The notes under the pieces are model-generated. The model was not told the DNA's origin. It did no database searches and worked only from the letters and a program-made list of their open reading frames with translations. A DNA stretch of 39,116 nt from Clostridia bacterium. GTDB taxonomy: Bacteria > Bacillota > Clostridia > Christensenellales > Aristaeellaceae. Numbering within the stretch: position 1 is the first letter of the stretch; every line of letters begins with the position of its first letter. A program made the translations under genes and the position numbers. Of this stretch, positions 2,442 through 13,680 are shown in pieces. The DNA is taken from the NCBI GenBank assembly GCA_017938795.1, contig JAGBAV010000119.1, positions 1 to 39,116 on the forward strand, in the 5' to 3' direction.

Positions 2442-3686
2442 TCAGGCGATCCGGGATATGCAGCCGCCGACGGCGGCGAGTTTCTCTTCGATCCGCTCAT
2501 AGCCGCGCACGATGTGCCCGGCTTCGTCGCAGACGGTCGTCTCGCCCTCTGCGGCAAGCCCGGCGATGATCAGCGCCGCGCCGGCGCGCAGGTCAGTCGC
2601 CGTGACCTTTGCGCCGGTGAGGTACGGCGTGCCCTCGACGACGGCGACGCGGTTCTCCACGCGGATGTGCGCGCCAAGGCGCGTGAGCTCCGCAGCGTGC
2701 ATGAACCGGTTTTCGAAGATCGTCTCCAGGAATACGCTGGTGCCGGGCGTCTTGCAGGCGACGGCCATCATCGGCGCCTGCAGGTCCGTCGGGAAGCCGG
2801 GGTAGACCATTGTGCGGATCTCAAAGGGCTGCTTGGCGCGGCCGAGGACGAGCAGCCCGCTCTGTGTATCCCGGATATGTACGCCGGCCTCGCTGAGCTT
2901 GAAGAGCAGGGAACGCAGGTGATCTGCCCGTGCGCCGCGCAGCAGCAGCTCGCCGCCCGTGACGGCGCAGGCGCAGGCCATGGTGCCGGCCTCGGCGCGG
3001 TCGGAGATGGGCTGCCAGCTTGTGCCGTGGAGCGACGGCACGCCTTCGATGACCACGGTGGAGGTGCCCGCCCCGGCGATGCGCGCGCCCATTGCGCACA
3101 GGAACGCGGCGAGGTCGACGATCTCCGGTTCCTTGGCGGCGTTCTCGATGCGCGTGACGCCGTCGGCGAGCGTCGCCGCCATGATGAGGTTCTCCGTTGC
3201 GCCGACGGACGGCATGTCAAGGTAGATCACCGCGCCGCGCAGCCTGCCCGTGAGCGTTACGCCGCCGTGCCCGCAGGCGACCTTCGCGCCCAGCGCGCTC
3301 ATGCCCTTGAGGTGCTGGTCGATGGGGCGCTGGCCAATGGCGCAGCCGCCGGGCAGGGGGATGTGCGCCTCGCCCAGCCGCGCGAGCAGGGGACCGAGCA
3401 CCAGCACGGAGGCCCGCATCTTGCGCACGTCCTCCTCGTCTTTGGGCACATGGAAGGCGTCGGCGCGGATGGTCAGCGCATCGCGCTCCCTGTGCAGGGC
3501 GCAGCCGCAGGCCTCAAAGAGCGAGCAGAGCGTCGCGACGTCGGTCAGCTCCGGCGGGTTCTCGATGCGCACATCCTCGCTGGTCAGCAGCGCGCCGCAC
3601 ATAATGGGCAGCACCGCGTTTTTGGATGTACTGATGGGTATTTCTCCCCGCAGAGGCGGGCTTTCGCGGACAGCGTAATGCGCCAT
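2442..3686 (-). CDS. murA: UDP-N-acetylglucosamine 1-carboxyvinyltransferase, copy 1
   Basis: Transfers enolpyruvate from PEP to UDP-GlcNAc, the first committed peptidoglycan step, in the cytoplasm. The 414-residue length is normal for MurA. Seen motifs: the N-terminal SKNAVLP with catalytic Lys, LPGGCAIGQRPIDQH with the PEP- and fosfomycin-reactive Cys, YPGFPTDLQ with the catalytic Asp, TDLRAGAAL, and the C-terminal RGYERIEEKL. An upstream in-frame extension exists, but ATG at 3686 is preceded by GGAGGG with a 6-nt gap, and homology begins there. The residue before RGYERIE is Val where most MurA enzymes have Asp. A second murA lies at 12412. The gene is transcribed away from glnN across a 411-nt spacer. 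It could be the specialised MurA2/MurZ-type paralogue; sequence reading alone cannot decide. Confidence 0.93.
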   Translation of the reverse strand: MAHYAVRESPPLRGEIPISTSKNAVLPIMCGALLTSEDVRIENPPELTDVATLCSLFEACGCALHRERDALTIRADAFHVPKDEEDVRKMRASVLVLGPLLARLGEAHIPLPGGCAIGQRPIDQHLKGMSALGAKVACGHGGVTLTGRLRGAVIYLDMPSVGATENLIMAATLADGVTRIENAAKEPEIVDLAAFLCAMGARIAGAGTSTVVIEGVPSLHGTSWQPISDRAEAGTMACACAVTGGELLLRGARADHLRSLLFKLSEAGVHIRDTQSGLLVLGRAKQPFEIRTMVYPGFPTDLQAPMMAVACKTPGTSVFLETIFENRFMHAAELTRLGAHIRVENRVAVVEGTPYLTGAKVTATDLRAGAALIIAGLAAEGETTVCDEAGHIVRGYERIEEKLAAVGGCISRIA

Positions 3687-4097
3687 GAAAATCCCTCCGT
3701 GTTCTGATCTTGCGGCGGCGGCCCGCCTGATGGCAGGGTATGCCGCGGCGGGATGATGCGTCCGTGCCGCCGCAGGAGGATTTTCTCCCGGGGAGCGCGG
3801 CGGCATGCCGGGGCGCAGAGTCAGACAGCGCCGCTATTCAGAGTTTATGCTGGAAATGCGCCGCGGTGCGAAGGCCGCTGCGCCGCGGGATTCCCGGGCG
3901 GCGGGGAGGAAGAATCCGACTGCGGGGAATGGACGGAAGCGAAGGAAAGAAAGGCCTGGGCGGGAATTTCTTTGCGTTTTTTGCCGAATCCGGCGAATTG
4001 CCTTTTGCGATTGCATTTTGCCCTGCGATGGTGTATTGTAATAATGGTATGATTTGTGCCCCTTGGTCATTATGGGGCGAGAAAGAGGCATGTTTTC
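3687..4097. other. 411-nt intergenic spacer between divergent murA and glnN
   Basis: No credible gene was found. The half next to murA is very GC-rich, with short imperfect inverted repeats around GCCGCGGC and CGGCGGCATGCCG. The half next to glnN becomes AT-rich and carries an extended -10 element. A small GCCG-AATC-CGGC hairpin sits near 3983. No riboswitch class was recognised. Confidence 0.5.
4045..4053 (+). promoter_or_regulatory. Extended -10 promoter for type III glutamine synthetase
   Basis: TGGTATGAT matches the extended -10 form TGnTATAAT with one mismatch, 44 nt before the start codon. No good -35 hexamer lies at 17 nt, which is usual for extended -10 promoters. This is pattern evidence only. 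Confidence 0.45.
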
Positions 4098-6200
4098 ATG
4101 AGCGAGAATCTGAATATTCCCGGCATCTATGGATGCGCTGTCTTCGGCGAGAAGGAGATGCGCGACCGGCTGCCGCGCGCGATTTATAAAAGCCTGAAAA
4201 AGAGCATGGCCACCGGCGAGGAGCTTGATCCCGTCGTCGCCGACGCCACGGCGCTGGCGATGAAGGAATGGGCGATCGATCAGGGCGCGACGCATTACAC
4301 GCACTGGTTCCAGCCGCTCACGGGCACCACGGCGGAGAAGCACGATTCCTTCATCAGCCCGCAGGAGGGCGGCACGGTGATCATGGAGCTGCGCGGCAAG
4401 GAGCTCATCAAGGGCGAGCCGGATGCCTCCTCTTTCCCTTCCGGCGGCATCCGCGCCACGTTCGAGGCGCGCGGCTATACCGTATGGGATATCACCAGCC
4501 CGGCCTTCCTCTACGAGAGCGGCACGACCAAGACGCTGTGCATCCCCACGGCATTCTGCTCGTATACCGGCGAGGCGCTGGATAAAAAGACCCCGCTGCT
4601 GCGCTCGATGGAGGCGATCAGCCGTCAGGCGCTGCGCATCTGCCGCCTCTTCGGCGATACGCAGACGCAGAAGGTCATCCCCTCCGTCGGCCCGGAGCAG
4701 GAATATTTCATCGTTGACCGCGAAACCTATCTGCGCAGGAAAGACCTCATCTTCACCGGGCGTACGCTCTTTGGCGCGATGCCGCCCAAGGGTCAGGAGA
4801 TGGAGGATCACTATTTCGGCGCGATCAAGGAGCGCGTGAGCAGCTATATGCGCGACCTCGACGTGGAGCTTTGGAAGCTGGGCATCCCGGCCAAAACGGA
4901 GCACAACGAGGCGGCGCCCGCGCAGCATGAGCTGGCGCCCATCTACGCCACGGCAAACGTCGCGACGGACGAGAACATGCTGATCATGAACGTCATGAAG
5001 AAGGTTGCCCTTCGCCATGGCCTCGTATGCCTGCTGCATGAGAAGCCCTTTGCGGGCGTCAACGGAAGCGGCAAGCACAACAACTGGTCGCTGACGACGG
5101 ACGACGGGAAGAATCTGCTGGATCCCGGCAAGGAGCCGCAGCATAACCGTATGTTCCTGCTGATGCTTGCTGCGATTATGCGTGCCGTGGACGAGCATGC
5201 CGGTTTGCTGCGCGTGAGCGCCGCCAACCCCGGCAACGACCACCGTCTCGGCGCGAACGAAGCGCCGCCCGCGATCATTTCGATGTTCCTCGGCGAGCAG
5301 CTGACGACTGTGGTTGAGCATATCATTGCCGATAACGACGAGGCTGTTCCCGCTGTGTCCAGGATGAAGGTCGGCGTGGCGACGCTGCCGGCCATCCGCA
5401 GGGACGCGACGGACAGGAACCGCACCTCGCCCTTCGCCTTCACCGGCAATAAATTTGAATTCCGCATGGTGCCCTCCTCAGGCTGCATTGCCGACGCCAA
5501 CACCGTGCTTAACACCATCGTGGCCGATGCGCTGGCGTCCTTTGCGGACGAGCTGGAAGGCGCGCAGGATTTTGACGCCGCGCTGCATGCGCTCATCCGC
5601 CGGGAAATGAAGGCGCATCAGCGTATCATCTTCAACGGAAACGGCTACACCGACGAGTGGGTGGCCGAGGCGGCGCGCCGCGGCCTGCCCAATATCGTGA
5701 GCATGGTCGACGCCATCCCGCATCTGATTACCCGCGACGCGGTGGAGCTCTTCGAGCGCCACGGGGTCTACACGGAGAAGGAGCTTGTCGCCCGCGCGGA
5801 CGTTTCCTTTGAGCTGTATGCCAAGACGATCAATATCGAGGCGCTGACGATGATCGACATGGCGGGCAAGGACATTATCCCCGCTGTGGTCCGCTATACG
5901 ACGGAGGTCGCCGCCTCCATCGCTGCGGTCGAGGCCGTGGGCATGGACGCCAGCGTGCAGCGCGATCTGCTTTCCCGCGTGAGCGTTCTGCTGCGTCAGG
6001 CGAGCGCGGCGCTCGCGGATCTGCGCGTCTGCCAGAGTGCTGCGGCGCGGATGACCGGAGAGGAGCAGGCGCGCGCGTATTATGAGCGCGTCTGCCCGGC
6101 GATGCAGGTGCTGCGCGCGCCTGTGGATCATCTGGAGATGATCGTCGGCAGCAGCTACTGGCCGATGCCGACATATGGCGACCTGCTGTTCAACGTGTGA
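4098..6200 (+). CDS. glnN: Glutamine synthetase type III
   Basis: Makes glutamine from glutamate, ammonia and ATP in the cytoplasm, the main ammonium assimilation reaction. At 700 residues it matches the GSIII class (about 700-730) rather than the 450-470 residues of types I and II. Visible motifs: the N-terminal [11 protein letters not shown] signature, [19 protein letters not shown] (metal/glutamate binding), [13 protein letters not shown], and [12 protein letters not shown] in the ATP/glutamate site. The start is ATG 4098, with AAAGAGG nine nt upstream; an in-frame upstream ATG at 4056 has no ribosome site. An extended -10 element precedes it. No GlnB/PII or other nitrogen gene is nearby, so regulation is not evident. 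Codon use is strongly biased, suggesting high expression. Confidence 0.96.
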
Positions 6201-7945: not shown

Positions 7946-9805
7946 ATGTGCGGGATTGTGGGTTATGCCGGCGCGGGGGAGGCCGGGCCGCTGCTGCTGG
8001 AGGGGCTCGGACGGCTGGCGTACAGGGGCTATGACTCGGCGGGCGTCGCGGTATGCGGCGATGACGGGCGGCTCTCGGTGATCCGCGCCGCGGGCAGGCT
8101 GGACAGGCTGCGGGAGAAGACGCAGGACGGCGCTGCGCTGCATGGCAGCTGCGGAATCGGGCATACGCGCTGGGCGACGCACGGCGCGCCGGATGAGCGC
8201 AACGCGCACCCGCATGCCTCGCCCGACGGTCTGACTGCGATCGTGCATAACGGCATCATCGGGAATCATCTGCTCCTGCGCAGCCGTCTTGAGGCGATGG
8301 GCTATGTCTTCCGCTCGGAGACGGACACGGAGGCGGCGGCGCTGCTGCTGCATGCATGCTGGCTGGCCTGCGGGGAGAGCGACCCGCGGCGGCGCGCGCT
8401 CGCCGCGCTGCGGGGGATGGCGGCGCAGCTCACGGGCAGCTATGCGATCTGCGCGCTCTTCGCCGGGCAGCCGGACGCTGTGTATGCCGTGCGGCGGGGC
8501 AGCCCGCTGGTGATCGGCTGCTGCGACGGAGGGTATATGCTGGCGTCGGACGTTCCCGCGCTGCTCGGGCGCGCGCATCACGCCGTCCATCTGCATGACG
8601 GGGAGTATGCATGCGTGAGTGCGGAGGCAGTTGAGCTCTATGACGCGGACGGCTGCAGGATCAGCCGGGAGAGCGAGGCGCTTGATATTGCGCCGGAGGC
8701 GGCGGACAAGGGCGGCTATGCGCACTATATGCTCAAGGAGATCGTGGAGCAGCCGCAAGCGCTGCGCCGCACGATCGGTGCATATACCGGCGAGGCGGGC
8801 GGCAGCCTGCGGGCCGATCTGCAGGCCGCCGGGCTGGGGCGGGAGCGGCTGGCTGCCGTGCGGCATGTGCTGCTCTTTGGCTGCGGCTCGGCGTATCACG
8901 CCGGTGTGGCGGGGCGCTATGCGATGGAGCGGCTGGCGCGCATTCCCTGCCGGGCGGAGCTGGCCAGCGAGCTGCGCTCGCGAGAGCTCCTGCTGGATCA
9001 GGCGGGAACGCTGGCTGTGGCCGTCAGCCAGAGCGGAGAGACGGCGGATACCCTCGCCGCGCTGCGCCTGTGCCGCGCGCATGGCGTACCCGTGCTGGCG
9101 GTGGTGAATGCCGCCCATTCCACGATGGCCCGCGAGGCGGACGGCGTGCTGCTCACCCGTGCCGGCCCGGAGATCGCCGTGGCGACGACCAAGGCCTATA
9201 CCGCGCAGGCGGCCGTGCTTGATCTGCTGGCGATTGCGCTTGCGGCGGCGCGCGGCTGCATCGGCGTGAGGGAGGAGGCTTCGCTCCTTGGCGCGCTGCA
9301 TGCGCTGCCGGACGCCGTCGGGGATTTGCTTGGCGTGCGGGACAGCATCCGGCGGATCGCAGAGGGAATGGCCGGTGCACACAGCGCCTTCTTCATCGGG
9401 CGGGGGATCGATCATGCCGCAGCGATGGAGGGCAGCCTCAAGCTCAAGGAGGTCAGCTATATCCACGCGGAGGCCTATCCCGCCGGGGAGCTCAAGCATG
9501 GCGCAATCAGCCTGATTGAGCCGGGTGTGCCGGTGATCGGGATCTGCACGCAGACGGATACGGCGGCGAGGATGCAGACCGCGATGGCGGAGGCAGGCAG
9601 CCGCGGCGCGTGCCTTGTGCATATATCATCCGGGGAGTGCGCCGTCCCCGGGGCGCAGGAGATACGGCTCCCGCAGGCGCATCCGCTCATTGCGCCGGTG
9701 CTCGCCGCCGTGCCGCTGCAGCTGCTGGCCTATGAGATCGGCTGCCTGCGCGGGCTTGACGTTGATCAGCCGCGCAATCTCGCCAAGAGCGTGACCGTGG
9801 AATAA
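7946..9805 (+). CDS. glmS: Glutamine-fructose-6-phosphate aminotransferase (isomerizing)
   Basis: Makes glucosamine-6-phosphate from fructose-6-phosphate and glutamine, feeding UDP-GlcNAc for the MurA enzymes in this window. 619 residues, a normal length. The start is fixed by MCGIVGYAG: Cys2 becomes the N-terminal nucleophile of the class II glutaminase after Met removal, and AGGAGGG lies six nt upstream. Other glutaminase motifs are TRWATHG and VHNGIIGNH. Two SIS sugar-isomerase domains follow (about residues 290-430 and 460-600), with GCGSAYHAG, SQSGETADT and YPAGELKHG. The tail DQPRNLAKSVTVE is the family C-terminus. The 97 nt between the upstream terminator and the start show no glmS ribozyme core, so the usual feedback control is not evident here. 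Confidence 0.97.
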   Translation: MCGIVGYAGAGEAGPLLLEGLGRLAYRGYDSAGVAVCGDDGRLSVIRAAGRLDRLREKTQDGAALHGSCGIGHTRWATHGAPDERNAHPHASPDGLTAIVHNGIIGNHLLLRSRLEAMGYVFRSETDTEAAALLLHACWLACGESDPRRRALAALRGMAAQLTGSYAICALFAGQPDAVYAVRRGSPLVIGCCDGGYMLASDVPALLGRAHHAVHLHDGEYACVSAEAVELYDADGCRISRESEALDIAPEAADKGGYAHYMLKEIVEQPQALRRTIGAYTGEAGGSLRADLQAAGLGRERLAAVRHVLLFGCGSAYHAGVAGRYAMERLARIPCRAELASELRSRELLLDQAGTLAVAVSQSGETADTLAALRLCRAHGVPVLAVVNAAHSTMAREADGVLLTRAGPEIAVATTKAYTAQAAVLDLLAIALAAARGCIGVREEASLLGALHALPDAVGDLLGVRDSIRRIAEGMAGAHSAFFIGRGIDHAAAMEGSLKLKEVSYIHAEAYPAGELKHGAISLIEPGVPVIGICTQTDTAARMQTAMAEAGSRGACLVHISSGECAVPGAQEIRLPQAHPLIAPVLAAVPLQLLAYEIGCLRGLDVDQPRNLAKSVTVE

Positions 9806-9809
9806 AGAA

Positions 9810-9833
9810 GCCCCGCGCCGTATGGCGCGGGGC
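9810..9833 (-). terminator. Terminator between convergent glmS and tetR
   Basis: A ten-pair perfect stem (GCCCCGCGCC with GGCGCGGGGC) and GTAT loop. Read on the minus strand it is followed by TTCTTTATTCC, so it best terminates the tetR-type gene. On the plus strand there is no T-run, but it still forms a 3' hairpin for glmS. Confidence 0.75.
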
Positions 9834-9844
9834 AATGGCGTATA

Positions 9845-10432
9845 TCAGGCGAGGTAGCGCTCGGCAACGATGCGCATGAAGAACTCTGTCGGGTCGCTGA
9901 GCATGCTGCCGGAGAAGCCGTCAAGCCTCGCGGACAGGGCGGCGGTGTGATTGACGCCGTGATAGAAGACATAGATGAAGGTGATCAGCTCGGCGATATC
10001 GCAGTCCTCCCTCAGCTCGCCGCGCGCCTTCGCGGCCGCAAAGACCTCGTGCTTTCGCGAGAGGAGCCATTGGGAGAATGCATTCCAGATGCCGGAGATG
10101 TCGGGAATGCCGCGTCCGGTCTGGAAGGAGGAGAAGAAATTGTCCCGGTTCTGCAGGCAGTATGCAAAGTCCTCGCGCAGCACGCTGCGGACGGGATGCT
10201 CAGCCACGAGGATGCGTTCATAGTTCTTTTTCATCTCGCTGGTGGCATATTCCGCCGCGGCGAGATACAGCTCCGCCTTGCTGGAGAAATAATAATACAG
10301 CGGGCCGCGCGTCACGCCGACCTCCTCCGCGATCTCGAGCATATTGGCCGCCACATACCCCCTGCTGGAGAAGTGACGGATGGCGCACTCGAGCAGCTGT
10401 GTGCGGAGCGCCTCGTTTCTGACCTGTGCCAT
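9845..10432 (-). CDS. TetR-family transcriptional regulator
   Basis: 195 residues, the usual TetR size. The N-terminal helix-turn-helix is clear at about residues 9-55: LLECAIRHFSSRGY, then MLEIAEEVGVTRGPLYYYF with the typical recognition-helix ending, then SSKAELY. The remaining ~140 residues are an all-helical ligand and dimer domain with no recognised inducer signature. ATG 10432 has GAGG six nt upstream. It is divergent from the flavin reductase gene; two matching pseudo-palindromes in that reductase's promoter are the natural operators, so it is probably the repressor. The inducer is unknown, perhaps the reductase substrate (inference). Confidence 0.92.
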   Translation of the reverse strand: MAQVRNEALRTQLLECAIRHFSSRGYVAANMLEIAEEVGVTRGPLYYYFSSKAELYLAAAEYATSEMKKNYERILVAEHPVRSVLREDFAYCLQNRDNFFSSFQTGRGIPDISGIWNAFSQWLLSRKHEVFAAAKARGELREDCDIAELITFIYVFYHGVNHTAALSARLDGFSGSMLSDPTEFFMRIVAERYLA

Positions 10433-10469
10433 AGTAAACCTCGCATTGCCAAATCATCATAATAAAGTC

Positions 10470-10498
10470 AGTATAGAGCATCTGCGCGGGAAAAACAA
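10470..10498 (-). promoter_or_regulatory. Promoter of the TetR gene
   Basis: On the minus strand: -35 TTGTTT, a 17-nt spacer, then -10 TATACT, about 38 nt before the start codon. The two operators of the divergent gene lie upstream of this -35 and do not overlap it, so strong autorepression is not predicted. Confidence 0.6.
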
Positions 10499-10532
10499 GG
10501 GCACAATCGTGTTAACTTCCTGACGAAATGAC

Positions 10533-10561
10533 TTGAAATTATACATGCGTGTATGTATAAT
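10533..10561 (+). promoter_or_regulatory. Near-consensus promoter of the flavin reductase gene
   Basis: -35 TTGAAA, exactly 17 nt, then a perfect -10 TATAAT. The spacer is occupied by operator 1. The predicted transcription start is near 10568. Confidence 0.85.
10541..10554. promoter_or_regulatory. Operator 1 (putative TetR site) inside the promoter spacer
   Basis: ATACATGCGTGTAT is a pseudo-palindrome (ATACA/TGTAT arms around TGCG) lying wholly between the -35 and -10 hexamers. A wider 22-bp dyad, arms TTATACAT and ATGTATAA, overlaps it. It shares the pattern ATRCATGCGTGYAT with operator 2. Confidence 0.7.
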
Positions 10562-10574
10562 AGTGGCAGAGATC

Positions 10575-10588
10575 ATGCATGCGTGCAT
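10575..10588. promoter_or_regulatory. Operator 2 (putative TetR site) just after the transcription start
   Basis: ATGCATGCGTGCAT has arms ATGCA/TGCAT, extended to TCATGCA/TGCATGA, around the same TGCG centre as operator 1. The centres are 34 bp apart, close to three helical turns. It lies at about +8 to +21, where a bound repressor would block early elongation. Confidence 0.7.
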
Positions 10589-10609
10589 GAATAAAAGGAG
10601 GAAAATCGT

Positions 10610-12319
10610 ATGATGAAGAGACTGTTTGCCGTCGTGCTGGCGGCGATGCTCCTCGCGACGGCGTCCATGGCTGCGGCCGAGGGCGTCAGCGGCACGTTCG
10701 AGGGCAGCGCGCAGGGCTTCCATGCGCCGGTCAAAGTGGCTGTGACGCTTGAAAACGGCGCGATTACGGATGTGACCGTGCTGGAGCAGGCCGAGACTGC
10801 GGGTGTGAGCGCCTATTCCCTCTCCGAGACCCCGAAGCGCATCGTTGAGGCGCAGAGCTGGAATGTGGACGCGCTCTCCGGCGCGACCTTCAGCTCCAAC
10901 GCGGTCAAGTACGCCGTGAAGGCGGCGCTGGAGGCCGCGGGCGCGGCTGGTCTGGACGCTGAGGTGCACAAGGAGCAGCCGGCGGACGAGACGCTGGACG
11001 TCGACGTGGTCGTCGTCGGCGCGGGCATGGCCGGCCTGAGCGCCGCCATCGAGGCGCATGACGCGGGCGCGAACGTGCTCGTGCTGGAGAAGCTGGACCG
11101 CATCGGCGGCTCCGCCATCACCTCCGGCGGCATTGTGTACGGCACCAACACCGTGATGAACGCCGAGATCGACAACGATCCGGAGGATATGGTGCAGTAC
11201 TACCTGATGCGCGGCAACAACAACATCGACGAGGACATCGTCCGCTTCTGGGCGGAGCATTCCGGCGAGAATGTCAACTGGCTGATCAATGACATGGGCG
11301 TGCAGTTCGCGACCCTCGGCGCCTCCGGCATCAGCCCGGCACAGCGCGCGCACACCACCGCCAACGGCGGCGCGGGCATCATCATGCCTGTGTTTGAGAA
11401 GTTTGAGGAGCGCGGCATTGCGCTTCGCCGCAACACCGCTGTGACCGACGTCCTCACCGACGGCGGGAAGGTGACCGGCGTTGTCGCCGAGTGCGACGGC
11501 GCGACCATCACCGTCAACGCGGATACCGTCATCATCGCCTGCGGCGGCTTTGACGTGAGCAAGGAAGCCAAGGCGAAGTACGCGCCTGACGCGGAGAATA
11601 TCGCCAGCATGTCCTCCATGGGCAACACCGGCGACTACATCGCCTGGGGCGAGAAGATCGGCGCGAGCATGATCTTCAAGGGCGGCGTCATGGGCATGCA
11701 CACCAGCAACGCGGCCTACACGCTGACTGACGGCATCAACCTGCTGTCCTTCATCCCGACGCTGGGCGTCACCGATCAGGGCGTGCGCTTCCAGAACGAA
11801 TCTAACGACTACCCGATCTTCTACACCAAGATGCTCGAGAGCGGCAGCGAGGTCTGCTACTGGATCTTCGACGCGGCCTCTCCGTTCGCCGCCCTGTGCG
11901 AGATGGCTCTGCCGCACTACGGCTACAAGGCCGACACCATCGAGGGTCTGGCCGAGGCCGCCGGCATGCCGGTTGAGACCTTCGCTGCGACCGTGGCCCG
12001 CTACAACGAGCTCGGCGCGAAGGGCGTTGACGAGGACTTCGGCCGCGCCGGCATTGCGCCGCTGGCTGCCGAGGGCCCGTACTACGCGGTCAAGGTTGTC
12101 CGCGCGACCGTCGCCGGCTTCGGCGGCTTCGAGATCAACACGTCCTCTCAGGTGCTTGACACCGAGGGCAACGTGATCCCGGGCCTGTATGCCGCGGGCG
12201 AGTGCGCGAGCGGCCAGTTCTTCGACAAGGAGTATCCGTGCTCCGGTTCCATGCTGTGCATCAGCACGACGTTCGGCCGTATTGCCGGCCAGAACGCCGC
12301 CGCCGAGGCCGCGAAGTAA
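10610..12319 (+). CDS. Secreted FMN-binding / FAD-dependent reductase (flavocytochrome c-type flavoprotein without heme)
   Basis: 569 residues. A Sec signal peptide (MMKRLF start, cleavage near SMAAA, residue 23) is followed by an FMN_bind domain (about 28-110) containing DALSGATFSS; Thr93 fits the residue to which ApbE-type transferases attach FMN. A FAD domain of the fumarate reductase/urocanate reductase superfamily starts with VVVVGAGMAGLSAA (GxGxxG at 137-142) and ends PGLYAAGECASG...FGRIAGQNAA. There is no CxxCH heme site and no lipobox. It should act outside the membrane, passing electrons through covalent FMN to FAD and then to a small organic acceptor. The usual fumarate-site His and Arg near the C-terminus appear replaced, so the substrate is probably not fumarate. 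AAGGAGG is eight nt upstream. Control by the divergent TetR is likely. No electron-donor or apbE gene is in the window. Confidence 0.9.
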   Translation: MMKRLFAVVLAAMLLATASMAAAEGVSGTFEGSAQGFHAPVKVAVTLENGAITDVTVLEQAETAGVSAYSLSETPKRIVEAQSWNVDALSGATFSSNAVKYAVKAALEAAGAAGLDAEVHKEQPADETLDVDVVVVGAGMAGLSAAIEAHDAGANVLVLEKLDRIGGSAITSGGIVYGTNTVMNAEIDNDPEDMVQYYLMRGNNNIDEDIVRFWAEHSGENVNWLINDMGVQFATLGASGISPAQRAHTTANGGAGIIMPVFEKFEERGIALRRNTAVTDVLTDGGKVTGVVAECDGATITVNADTVIIACGGFDVSKEAKAKYAPDAENIASMSSMGNTGDYIAWGEKIGASMIFKGGVMGMHTSNAAYTLTDGINLLSFIPTLGVTDQGVRFQNESNDYPIFYTKMLESGSEVCYWIFDAASPFAALCEMALPHYGYKADTIEGLAEAAGMPVETFAATVARYNELGAKGVDEDFGRAGIAPLAAEGPYYAVKVVRATVAGFGGFEINTSSQVLDTEGNVIPGLYAAGECASGQFFDKEYPCSGSMLCISTTFGRIAGQNAAAEAAK

Positions 12320-12332
12320 TTGCCAAACCACA

Positions 12333-12363
12333 AAGACGGCCCGCGAAAGCGGGTCGTCTTTTG
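12333..12363 (+). terminator. Rho-independent terminator of the flavin reductase gene
   Basis: A 12-pair stem (AAGACGGCCCGC with GCGGGTCGTCTT, one G-U pair) with a GAAA tetraloop runs into TTTT. Confidence 0.88.
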
Positions 12364-12372
12364 CTGTATGCA

Positions 12373-12400
12373 ATAAAAGCAGCCCGCCGAAGCGGGCTGC
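12373..12400 (-). terminator. Rho-independent terminator of the second murA
   Basis: A nine-pair perfect stem (GCAGCCCGC with GCGGGCTGC). On the minus strand it has a TTCG loop and is followed by TTTTATTG, 11 nt after the murA stop. It sits back to back with the plus-strand terminator. Confidence 0.87.
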
Positions 12401-12411
12401 CTGTGTAGTCG

Positions 12412-13680
12412 TTATTCCTTCACGCGGGAGATGCTTGCGCCAAGGCTGGAGAGCTTCGCCTCGATGTTCTCATAGCCGCGGTCGATGAAGTGCGTGTTGA
12501 AGATCTCGGTTGTGCCCTGCGCCATCAGGCCGGCCACGACGAGCGCCGCGCCTGCGCGCAGGTCCGTTGCCTCCACGGCGGCGCCGTGCAGCTGCGGGAC
12601 GCCCTCGATGATGGCCGTCTGCTCATAGACGCGCACGCGCGCGCCCATGCGCTCCATCTCCGCCAGATGCAGGAAGCGGGACTCGAAGAGATTCTCCACG
12701 ACGGTGGAGGTGCCGGTCGCCGTGCACAGCAGCGCGCTCATGGGCTGCTGCAGGTCGGTCGGGAAGCCGGGGTAGACCTGCGTCTTGAAGGAGACGGCCC
12801 TGTGGGAGCCGATGGACTTGACGCGGATGGAGTCGTCGCGCTCATAGACCTTTGCGCCCATCTCCAGCAGCTTGGCGGTCAGCGCCTCCATATGTGTGGG
12901 GATGCAGCCGGTGACGGTCACGTCGCCATGGGTGGCGGCAGCGGCGATCATCAGCGTGCCGGTCTCGATCTGGTCCGGGATGACGGCGTAGGGGCGGCGG
13001 GCAGCCAGCGACTGCGTGCCGCGCACACGGATGATGTCGGTGCCTGCGCCCTTGACCCTGCAGCCCATGGAGTTAAGGAAGTTGGCGAGGTCGACGATAT
13101 GCGGCTCCTTCGCCGCGTTGTAGATGGTGGTGATGCCCTGCGCGCGGGAGGCGGCGAGCATGACGTTGATCGTGCCGCCGACGGTCGCCATATCGAGGAA
13201 GACGTCGCCGCCGGCGAGCGGCTCGGCCTCCGCGATGACGGTGCCGCGGGAGAGCTCCACCTGCGCGCCGAGGGCGCGCATACCCTTGATGTGCTGATCG
13301 ATGGGGCGGCGGCCGATGTTGCAGCCGCCGGGCAGCGGCACGCGGGCGCTGCCAAAGCGCGCGAGCAGCGCGCCGATGTAGTAGGACGATGCGCGCATGC
13401 GGCGGCTGAGCTCCAGCGGCACATCCGTGCGGCAGATGGAGCTGGAGTCGACCTCCATGATGCCCTCAGCGGGATCCCAGTTGACCTTCGCGCCGAGGTA
13501 CTCCAGCGTCTCTACGGAGACGTGCACGTCCTCGATGTTGGGCAGATTCTCGATCACGCACGGGGTCTGGCTCAGGATTGCAGCCGGAATGATGGCGACG
13601 GCGGTGTTCTTGCCGCCGCTGACGCGGACGGTACCCTCCAGCCTCTGCCCTCCGGTGATGAGCATTCTCTCTTCTGCCAT
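12412..13680 (-). CDS. murA: UDP-N-acetylglucosamine 1-carboxyvinyltransferase, copy 2
   Basis: Same reaction as the copy at 2442. 422 residues with every MurA hallmark: SGGKNTAVAIIPA (catalytic Lys-Asn), RRMRASSYYIGALLARFG, LPGGCNIGRRPIDQH (reactive Cys), MATVGGTINVMLAA, YPGFPTDLQQP (catalytic Asp), TDLRAGAALVVAG and HFIDRGYENIEAKL. Unlike copy 1 it keeps the Asp before RGYE. ATG 13680 has GAGGAGG about six nt upstream and a good promoter further up. It is divergent from the FHA-FtsW-PBP cluster and likely monocistronic. Gram-positives often keep two MurA enzymes; which one is essential here cannot be told from sequence. Confidence 0.95.
   Translation of the reverse strand: MAEERMLITGGQRLEGTVRVSGGKNTAVAIIPAAILSQTPCVIENLPNIEDVHVSVETLEYLGAKVNWDPAEGIMEVDSSSICRTDVPLELSRRMRASSYYIGALLARFGSARVPLPGGCNIGRRPIDQHIKGMRALGAQVELSRGTVIAEAEPLAGGDVFLDMATVGGTINVMLAASRAQGITTIYNAAKEPHIVDLANFLNSMGCRVKGAGTDIIRVRGTQSLAARRPYAVIPDQIETGTLMIAAAATHGDVTVTGCIPTHMEALTAKLLEMGAKVYERDDSIRVKSIGSHRAVSFKTQVYPGFPTDLQQPMSALLCTATGTSTVVENLFESRFLHLAEMERMGARVRVYEQTAIIEGVPQLHGAAVEATDLRAGAALVVAGLMAQGTTEIFNTHFIDRGYENIEAKLSSLGASISRVKE

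Follow-up and report, generated by a model that had tools for sequence, protein, structure and literature searches.

The window, by which we mean the whole 39,116-nucleotide stretch of Clostridia DNA analyzed here, contains a TetR-type regulator gene and a flavin reductase gene that diverge from a common spacer (Table 1). The genome sample to which it belongs (G000) comprises 2.87 Mb in 156 contigs and is 79% complete. The regulator matches the TetR_N domain (PF00440) with 51.3 bits (cut-off, 24) and TetR_C_13 with merely 22.3 bits, under the cut-off of 27. The reductase matches FMN_bind (65.7 bits) and FAD_binding_2 (187.2 bits). Rfam at gathering thresholds gave no match in positions 9800 to 10700, and neither did plasmid records searched in near mode with positions 9800 to 12420.

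Table 1. Features of the tetR-reductase locus (window coordinates)
Feature	Position	Strand	Basis or remarks
tetR gene, 195-aa TetR/AcrR-type repressor	9845..10432	-	ORF and TetR_N match
Candidate tetR -10, TATACT	10470..10475	-	-35 TTGTTT at 10493-10498, 17-nt spacer; weak, 8/12 consensus matches
Reductase promoter -35, TTGAAA	10533..10538	+	Sequence and promoter scan
Operator 1 (putative), ATTATACA-TGCGTGTA-TGTATAAT	10538..10561	no strand	Conserved arms, matrix score
Reductase promoter -10, TATAAT, within right arm of operator 1	10556..10561	+	Sequence and promoter scan
Operator 2 (putative), degenerate copy, ATCATGCA-TGCGTGCA-TGAATAAA	10572..10595	no strand	Matrix score
Perfect palindrome inside operator 2	10573-10590		7-bp arms, 4-nt center
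Shine-Dalgarno sequence, AGGAGG	10596..10601	+	By eye
Flavin reductase gene, FMN_bind (SGAT motif) and FAD_binding_2	10610..12319	+	ORF, domain matches, motif alignment

Promoter palindromes at the divergent locus

The reductase promoter was the sole sigma-70-like site found in positions 9800 to 12420 (11 of 12 matches; shuffles, mean of 0.4). Its TTGAAA-17-TATAAT arrangement, pointed out in an earlier note on this DNA, is present, as are the palindrome ATACATGCGTGTAT in the 17-nt spacer (10541 to 10554) and a second palindrome, ATGCATGCGTGCAT, at 10575 to 10588. Their centers are 34 bp apart, and the second covers +8 to +21 if +1 is assumed to be position 10568. The earlier note had the two sites bracket the promoter, which is a loose description: two related palindromes do lie there, but site 1 is within the promoter and site 2 is downstream of it.

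The exact 14-mer ATRCATGCGTGYAT occurs at two places in its own genome, which are the two sites of the window. With up to three mismatches, however, its 14 matches in the window do not exceed the number expected by chance (14.1), so the case had to rest on comparison. Among the six orthologous spacers (five scanned and that of G333 inspected by eye), one, from G209, contains the exact 14-mer. We therefore dropped the 14-mer as the unit of conservation: as drawn in the earlier note, the motif is not conserved in related genomes, whereas a 24-bp element of which it is the core is.

Conservation of a 24-bp element with tetR

What is conserved is the 24-mer ATTATACA-N8-TGTATAAT, with the -10 box inside its right arm. 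The window and all six closer TetR orthologues (TetR identity of 39 to 47%) agree in every letter of both 8-bp arms, and each of the six is adjoined by a divergent reductase gene (58 to 80% identity). Five of these orthologues (39 to 43%) were found among 299 other genomes of the family, a count that omits a 32-residue remnant in G238; all five have the divergent reductase (58 to 68% identity over the compared part) and the exact element in the spacer. The sixth, in G333, is from another family of the same order and was the one new match in a TetR-profile search of 396 order genomes (E ≤ 1e-15). It combines a TetR of 47% and a reductase of 79 to 80% identity with an exact operator over the -10 box. 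Three of the genomes (G201, G209, and G266) are of one genus, and the counts of relatives are not independent. When the contigs of the named genomes were scanned with this one TetR sequence, 16 loci were returned, 30 to 50% identical over part of the protein.

An operator matrix was built from nine relatives, with the window, G860, and G014 excluded. Operator 1 scored 46.2 bits, the highest of all window positions, and the best position after sites 1 and 2 reached 3.3 bits; none of 5,000 spacer shuffles matched the score of either site. Operator 1 is also the only exact copy of the arm pattern in its own genome, as expected of the site of a local repressor. A wider regulon in this genome was considered and rejected: besides site 1 there is one copy with two mismatches and there are nine with three, and the reversed control gave five places. 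In 29 stretches around the genome's own reductase paralogues, the best match to the matrix was 5.2 bits. G213 (L143), a genome of the same genus as the window, has a 45% identical reductase paralogue beside a divergent TetR-like gene (by eye), without this operator.

When the bare arm pattern was searched in 308 family genomes, exact copies were found in seven, namely, the six that bear the TetR and G014, and 23 genomes had a one-mismatch copy only. At the 30 loci from this search, this TetR or reductase is encoded only at the six TetR-bearing ones; around the G014 copy and the 23 one-mismatch copies, neither was found within the 1.6 to 3 kb fetched. The arms alone are thus unspecific at one mismatch, and arms plus center are specific. 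The association of operator and TetR had a Fisher P value of 7e-12 by genome (300 genomes), which is too small because of kinship, and of 2e-5 by genus. A natural control is provided by G274, of the same family, in which a 63% identical reductase has a TTGAAC-17-TATAAT promoter (by eye). No TetR orthologue was found in this genome (83% complete), and no operator on the 4.7-kb contig (best matrix score, -0.9 bits); the promoter is kept without the palindrome, so the promoter alone does not explain it.

At the class level, TetR matches with E ≤ 1e-12 were found in 21 genomes besides the window's own, among 391. We examined 22 loci (of 23 matches listed, the own match being excluded), and three contain the element: G730, G872, and G796, with zero, one, and two mismatches, respectively. 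Their TetRs are 23 to 27% identical to that of the window; beside tetR, G730 and G872 encode a divergent reductase of 38% identity, and the G796 locus is cut by the contig end. Three further loci of the 22 have three-mismatch copies and no reductase match. The bare pattern with an R/Y center and up to two mismatches, searched in 283 class genomes, likewise returned G730, G872, G796, and, besides the window's own genome, only G860, where a two-mismatch copy adjoins unrelated genes; the reversed-pattern control gave no matches in the genomes listed. Because the element is almost unchanged even in such remote versions of the gene pair, it looks like the real landing site of the repressor. The recognition-helix region is conserved alongside the operator: the seven closer TetRs have VTR(G/A)PLYYYF there, and the three far ones have ISRGP(I/V)YYHF. 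Cys92, which would be a candidate for cysteine sensing of the NemR type, is shared by the seven closer TetRs, G872, and G796; G730 lacks it. By comparison, the 24-mer is identified as the putative operator, is linked to this TetR, and overlaps the promoter.

Two other readings of the palindrome were weighed. A different regulator might bind it while the adjoining TetR acts elsewhere, as the copies in G014, in the 23 one-mismatch genomes, and in G860 could suggest, since neither this TetR nor this reductase is encoded in the surrounding sequence that was examined. We consider this very unlikely, as the palindrome tracks the tetR gene through nine relatives in five families (f1, f27, f52, f77, and f100) and is lost in the TetR-less G274, and the single exact copy in the own genome is what a local repressor would leave. 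Alternatively, the palindrome could reflect nothing but conservation of the -35 and -10 boxes, given that the -10 box sits in its right arm. This reading is already contradicted by the comparisons, and we give it hardly any credence: the left arm, ATTATACA, serves no promoter function toward the reductase and yet is identical in the window and all six closer orthologues, G274 keeps the promoter and not the left arm, and the whole element of G730 and G872 is located past the best-matching -10 box.

Second site and promoter layout

Operator 2 scored 23.3 bits with the matrix, second of all window positions, and no copy of it was seen in the six closer orthologues. It starts 10 nt past the -10 box, close to where the strong operator of G730 and G872 starts (8 nt past). 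Alternatively, the same letters could fold as a hairpin in the 5' part of the reductase mRNA and act on its stability or translation, with TetR binding to site 1 only. The perfect palindrome folds into a 7-bp stem with a 4-nt loop (-7.2 kcal/mol), and an 18-nt palindrome with the same stem and loop lengths and different letters lies just past the -10 box of G333; shuffling the letters of the leader rarely produced such a stem (47 of 20,000 shuffles for the window and 330 of 20,000 for G333). Against this, no stem of this kind is present in the remaining five leaders of the closer relatives, and both the matrix score of site 2, unmatched in the shuffles, and its position near that of the G730 and G872 operator favor an operator. 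We regard the hairpin-only reading as unlikely, although one to be kept in mind, and the two roles could hold together. G872 also has a second, weaker operator copy, 147 bp from the first in the direction of tetR; this copy is borderline, being equaled in 17 of 2,000 spacer shuffles and 5 of 100 shuffles of the 9-kb stretch.

According to the earlier note, the operators leave the tetR promoter clear. For the window this is plausible, as a separate weak candidate on the minus strand (TTGTTT-17-TATACT, 8 of 12 matches) lies outside the operator, and G333 is alike, with TTGCAG-18-TATACT at the identical distance from its operator; in both, the tetR-ward -35 over the operator is poor (two of six matches). 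As a general rule it does not stand. In the five same-family relatives, face-to-face near-consensus promoters share the operator, with TTGACN-18-TATAAT directed toward the reductase and TTGACA-17-TATAAT (TTGATA in G196) toward tetR, so that a single repressor site would shut both genes.

These five relatives (L085 to L089) all have a further block 29 to 30 nt to the tetR side of the operator, consisting of an ACA-containing hexamer, 16 nt, and TATAAT. It could be half an operator or an upstream promoter. In G238, of the same genus as the window, the last 32 tetR codons, 12 bases, and about 124 C-terminal reductase codons (95% identical) lie between glmS and murA (L084, 4386 to 4865). A single deletion appears to have removed the operator and the remaining parts of both genes, unless the contig is misassembled at this point.

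Proposed switch and known systems

The switch of the earlier note, with TetR operating the reductase promoter, is well supported as far as comparison goes, since the putative operator goes with tetR across genomes and is gone in G274. Its details needed revision: there are two sites at the promoter, but the operator is 24 bp rather than 14, one arm holds the -10 hexamer, and the second site is a degenerate copy. The full proposal, which we hold to be very probable, is as follows. TetR, probably as a dimer or a pair of dimers, would bind ATTATACA-N8-TGTATAAT and, by covering the -10 box and the spacer before it, keep RNA polymerase off the reductase gene; the weaker site 2 just past the start site would tighten repression. 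A small molecule would free the repressor, and the reductase would then be made, exported, and flavinylated and form the end of an anaerobic electron transfer chain. Repression, dimer binding, induction, export, and flavinylation are what knowledge of these protein families leads us to infer.

The reductase contains DALSGAT, which the motif alignment places with flavinylation motifs of the [S/T]GA[S/T] type, and one ApbE gene was found in the own genome. Its N terminus looks signal-peptide-like by eye alone, and the starts in G333, G730, and G872 look lipoprotein-like, also by eye. The domains, the motif, and the ApbE gene fit a predicted exported, flavinylated reductase. In G730 (L174), the FMN-binding and FAD domains are separate adjacent genes (4559 to 4900 and 3080 to 4537) behind the same operator, both with lipoprotein-like starts (by eye).

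In an alignment with Fcc3, the window reductase has Tyr401 at the place of Arg402, TVAGFGG for HHTMGG, and EYPCSG for NRLGG, and it lacks carboxylate-binding residues of fumarate and urocanate reductases. In Fcc3 these are Arg402, the hinge histidine, and a C-terminal arginine. For UrdA, PMC7921117 gives Arg411, His520, and Arg560 as the substrate-carboxylate residues and reports no activity for the R411A and R560A variants. Six paralogues in the own genome (C29b, C115, C11, C100, C56, and C112) keep HHTMGG together with NRLGG or NRVGG. Near its C terminus the window reductase has Y542-P-C-S-G546, with Tyr and Gly four apart; YPxSG is also found in G087, G201, G209, G266, G333, G730, and G872 (G196 is cut at that point), as well as in the operator-less G274 and the own paralogue C94a. 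In ketosteroid dehydrogenases, a Tyr and a Gly four apart hold the ketone oxygen, and Tyr401 may be equivalent to a KstD tyrosine. The replaced residues point away from fumarate-like acids, and Tyr401 with Y542-P-x-x-G546 is a hint that the substrate may be an unsaturated carbonyl; to read these residues as a carbonyl site of the ketosteroid dehydrogenase kind is a guess from the Tyr/Gly spacing. The earlier note proposed that the ligand may be the substrate of the reductase or a precursor of it. It is likewise a guess that the inducer would be the substrate itself and that this would probably be an unsaturated carbonyl compound rather than an acid like fumarate.

A broader idea, which we offer tentatively and would not yet favor, is that one repressor-operator pair, its letters kept while TetR identity fell to about 25%, guards one subclass of exported flavin reductases, with a carbonyl-type active site, in at least four families of the class; the layout would have drifted (on the -10 box, past the start, over two promoters, doubled in the window) while the sensed unsaturated carbonyl electron acceptor stayed unchanged. 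The switch itself is ordinary in kind; what is new is the question of the reductase substrate and the drift of promoter layout around a fixed operator.

The substrates of many members of this reductase superfamily are still unknown, according to PMC8238504. The operator-TetR pair is a good handle on the substrate, and once validated it could serve as a reporter for finding one without culturing the source organism. In the own genome, 23 places including the window match this reductase (E ≤ 6.4e-9; some are pieces at contig ends), and 5 of the 11 TetR_N genes, the window's among them, have a reductase-like match no more than about 0.7 kb away; for a sixth (C2) the distance is about 2 kb. A binomial figure for this adjacency, calculated with a hand-set genome fraction of 2.6%, is given no weight here. 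As TetR_N genes adjoin such places, the reporter approach may extend to others. Neighbors of this type in G000 are on contigs C96, C2, C56, C100, and C116.

TetR/TetA is the familiar case of a local TetR-family repressor acting on a neighboring gene. NemR of E. coli, a TetR-family repressor of the flavin-dependent enoate reductase NemA, senses electrophiles and resembles the present pair in having a flavin-dependent reductase as target; NemA, however, is a cytosolic old yellow enzyme, whereas the window reductase is putatively exported. In literature searches, six consensus-like operator forms did not occur, and of six window forms one string occurred once, in a prostate cancer paper (PMC4041454); no description of this regulator-reductase pair was found in the excerpts returned, which is not proof of absence. 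Listeria FrdA and Shewanella UrdA, which are extracytosolic flavinylated enzymes of the fumarate reductase-like type (PMC8238504), share with the window reductase an FMN_bind domain with an [S/T]GA[S/T]-type motif and PF00890, and the carboxylate-binding residues of Fcc3 and UrdA are replaced here. Cgr2 has Y532 and G536 four apart near its C terminus, like Y542 and G546 here, a likeness of spacing, and Y532 is described as dispensable in Cgr2 (PMC5953540). AcrR/AcrAB is alike in combining a TetR_N domain with a palindromic promoter operator. In PMC10597343, the E. coli AcrR site is TACATACATTTGTGAATGTATGTA, which is 24 bp like the window operator and has the string TACATACA in common with it. 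This string begins at position 1 of the AcrR 24-mer and at position 5 of the half-site consensus here (by eye), so the arm spacing differs, and an AcrR-type operator, similar in letters, was rejected. The targets differ as well: AcrR acts on a pump, and the window TetR would act on a reductase.
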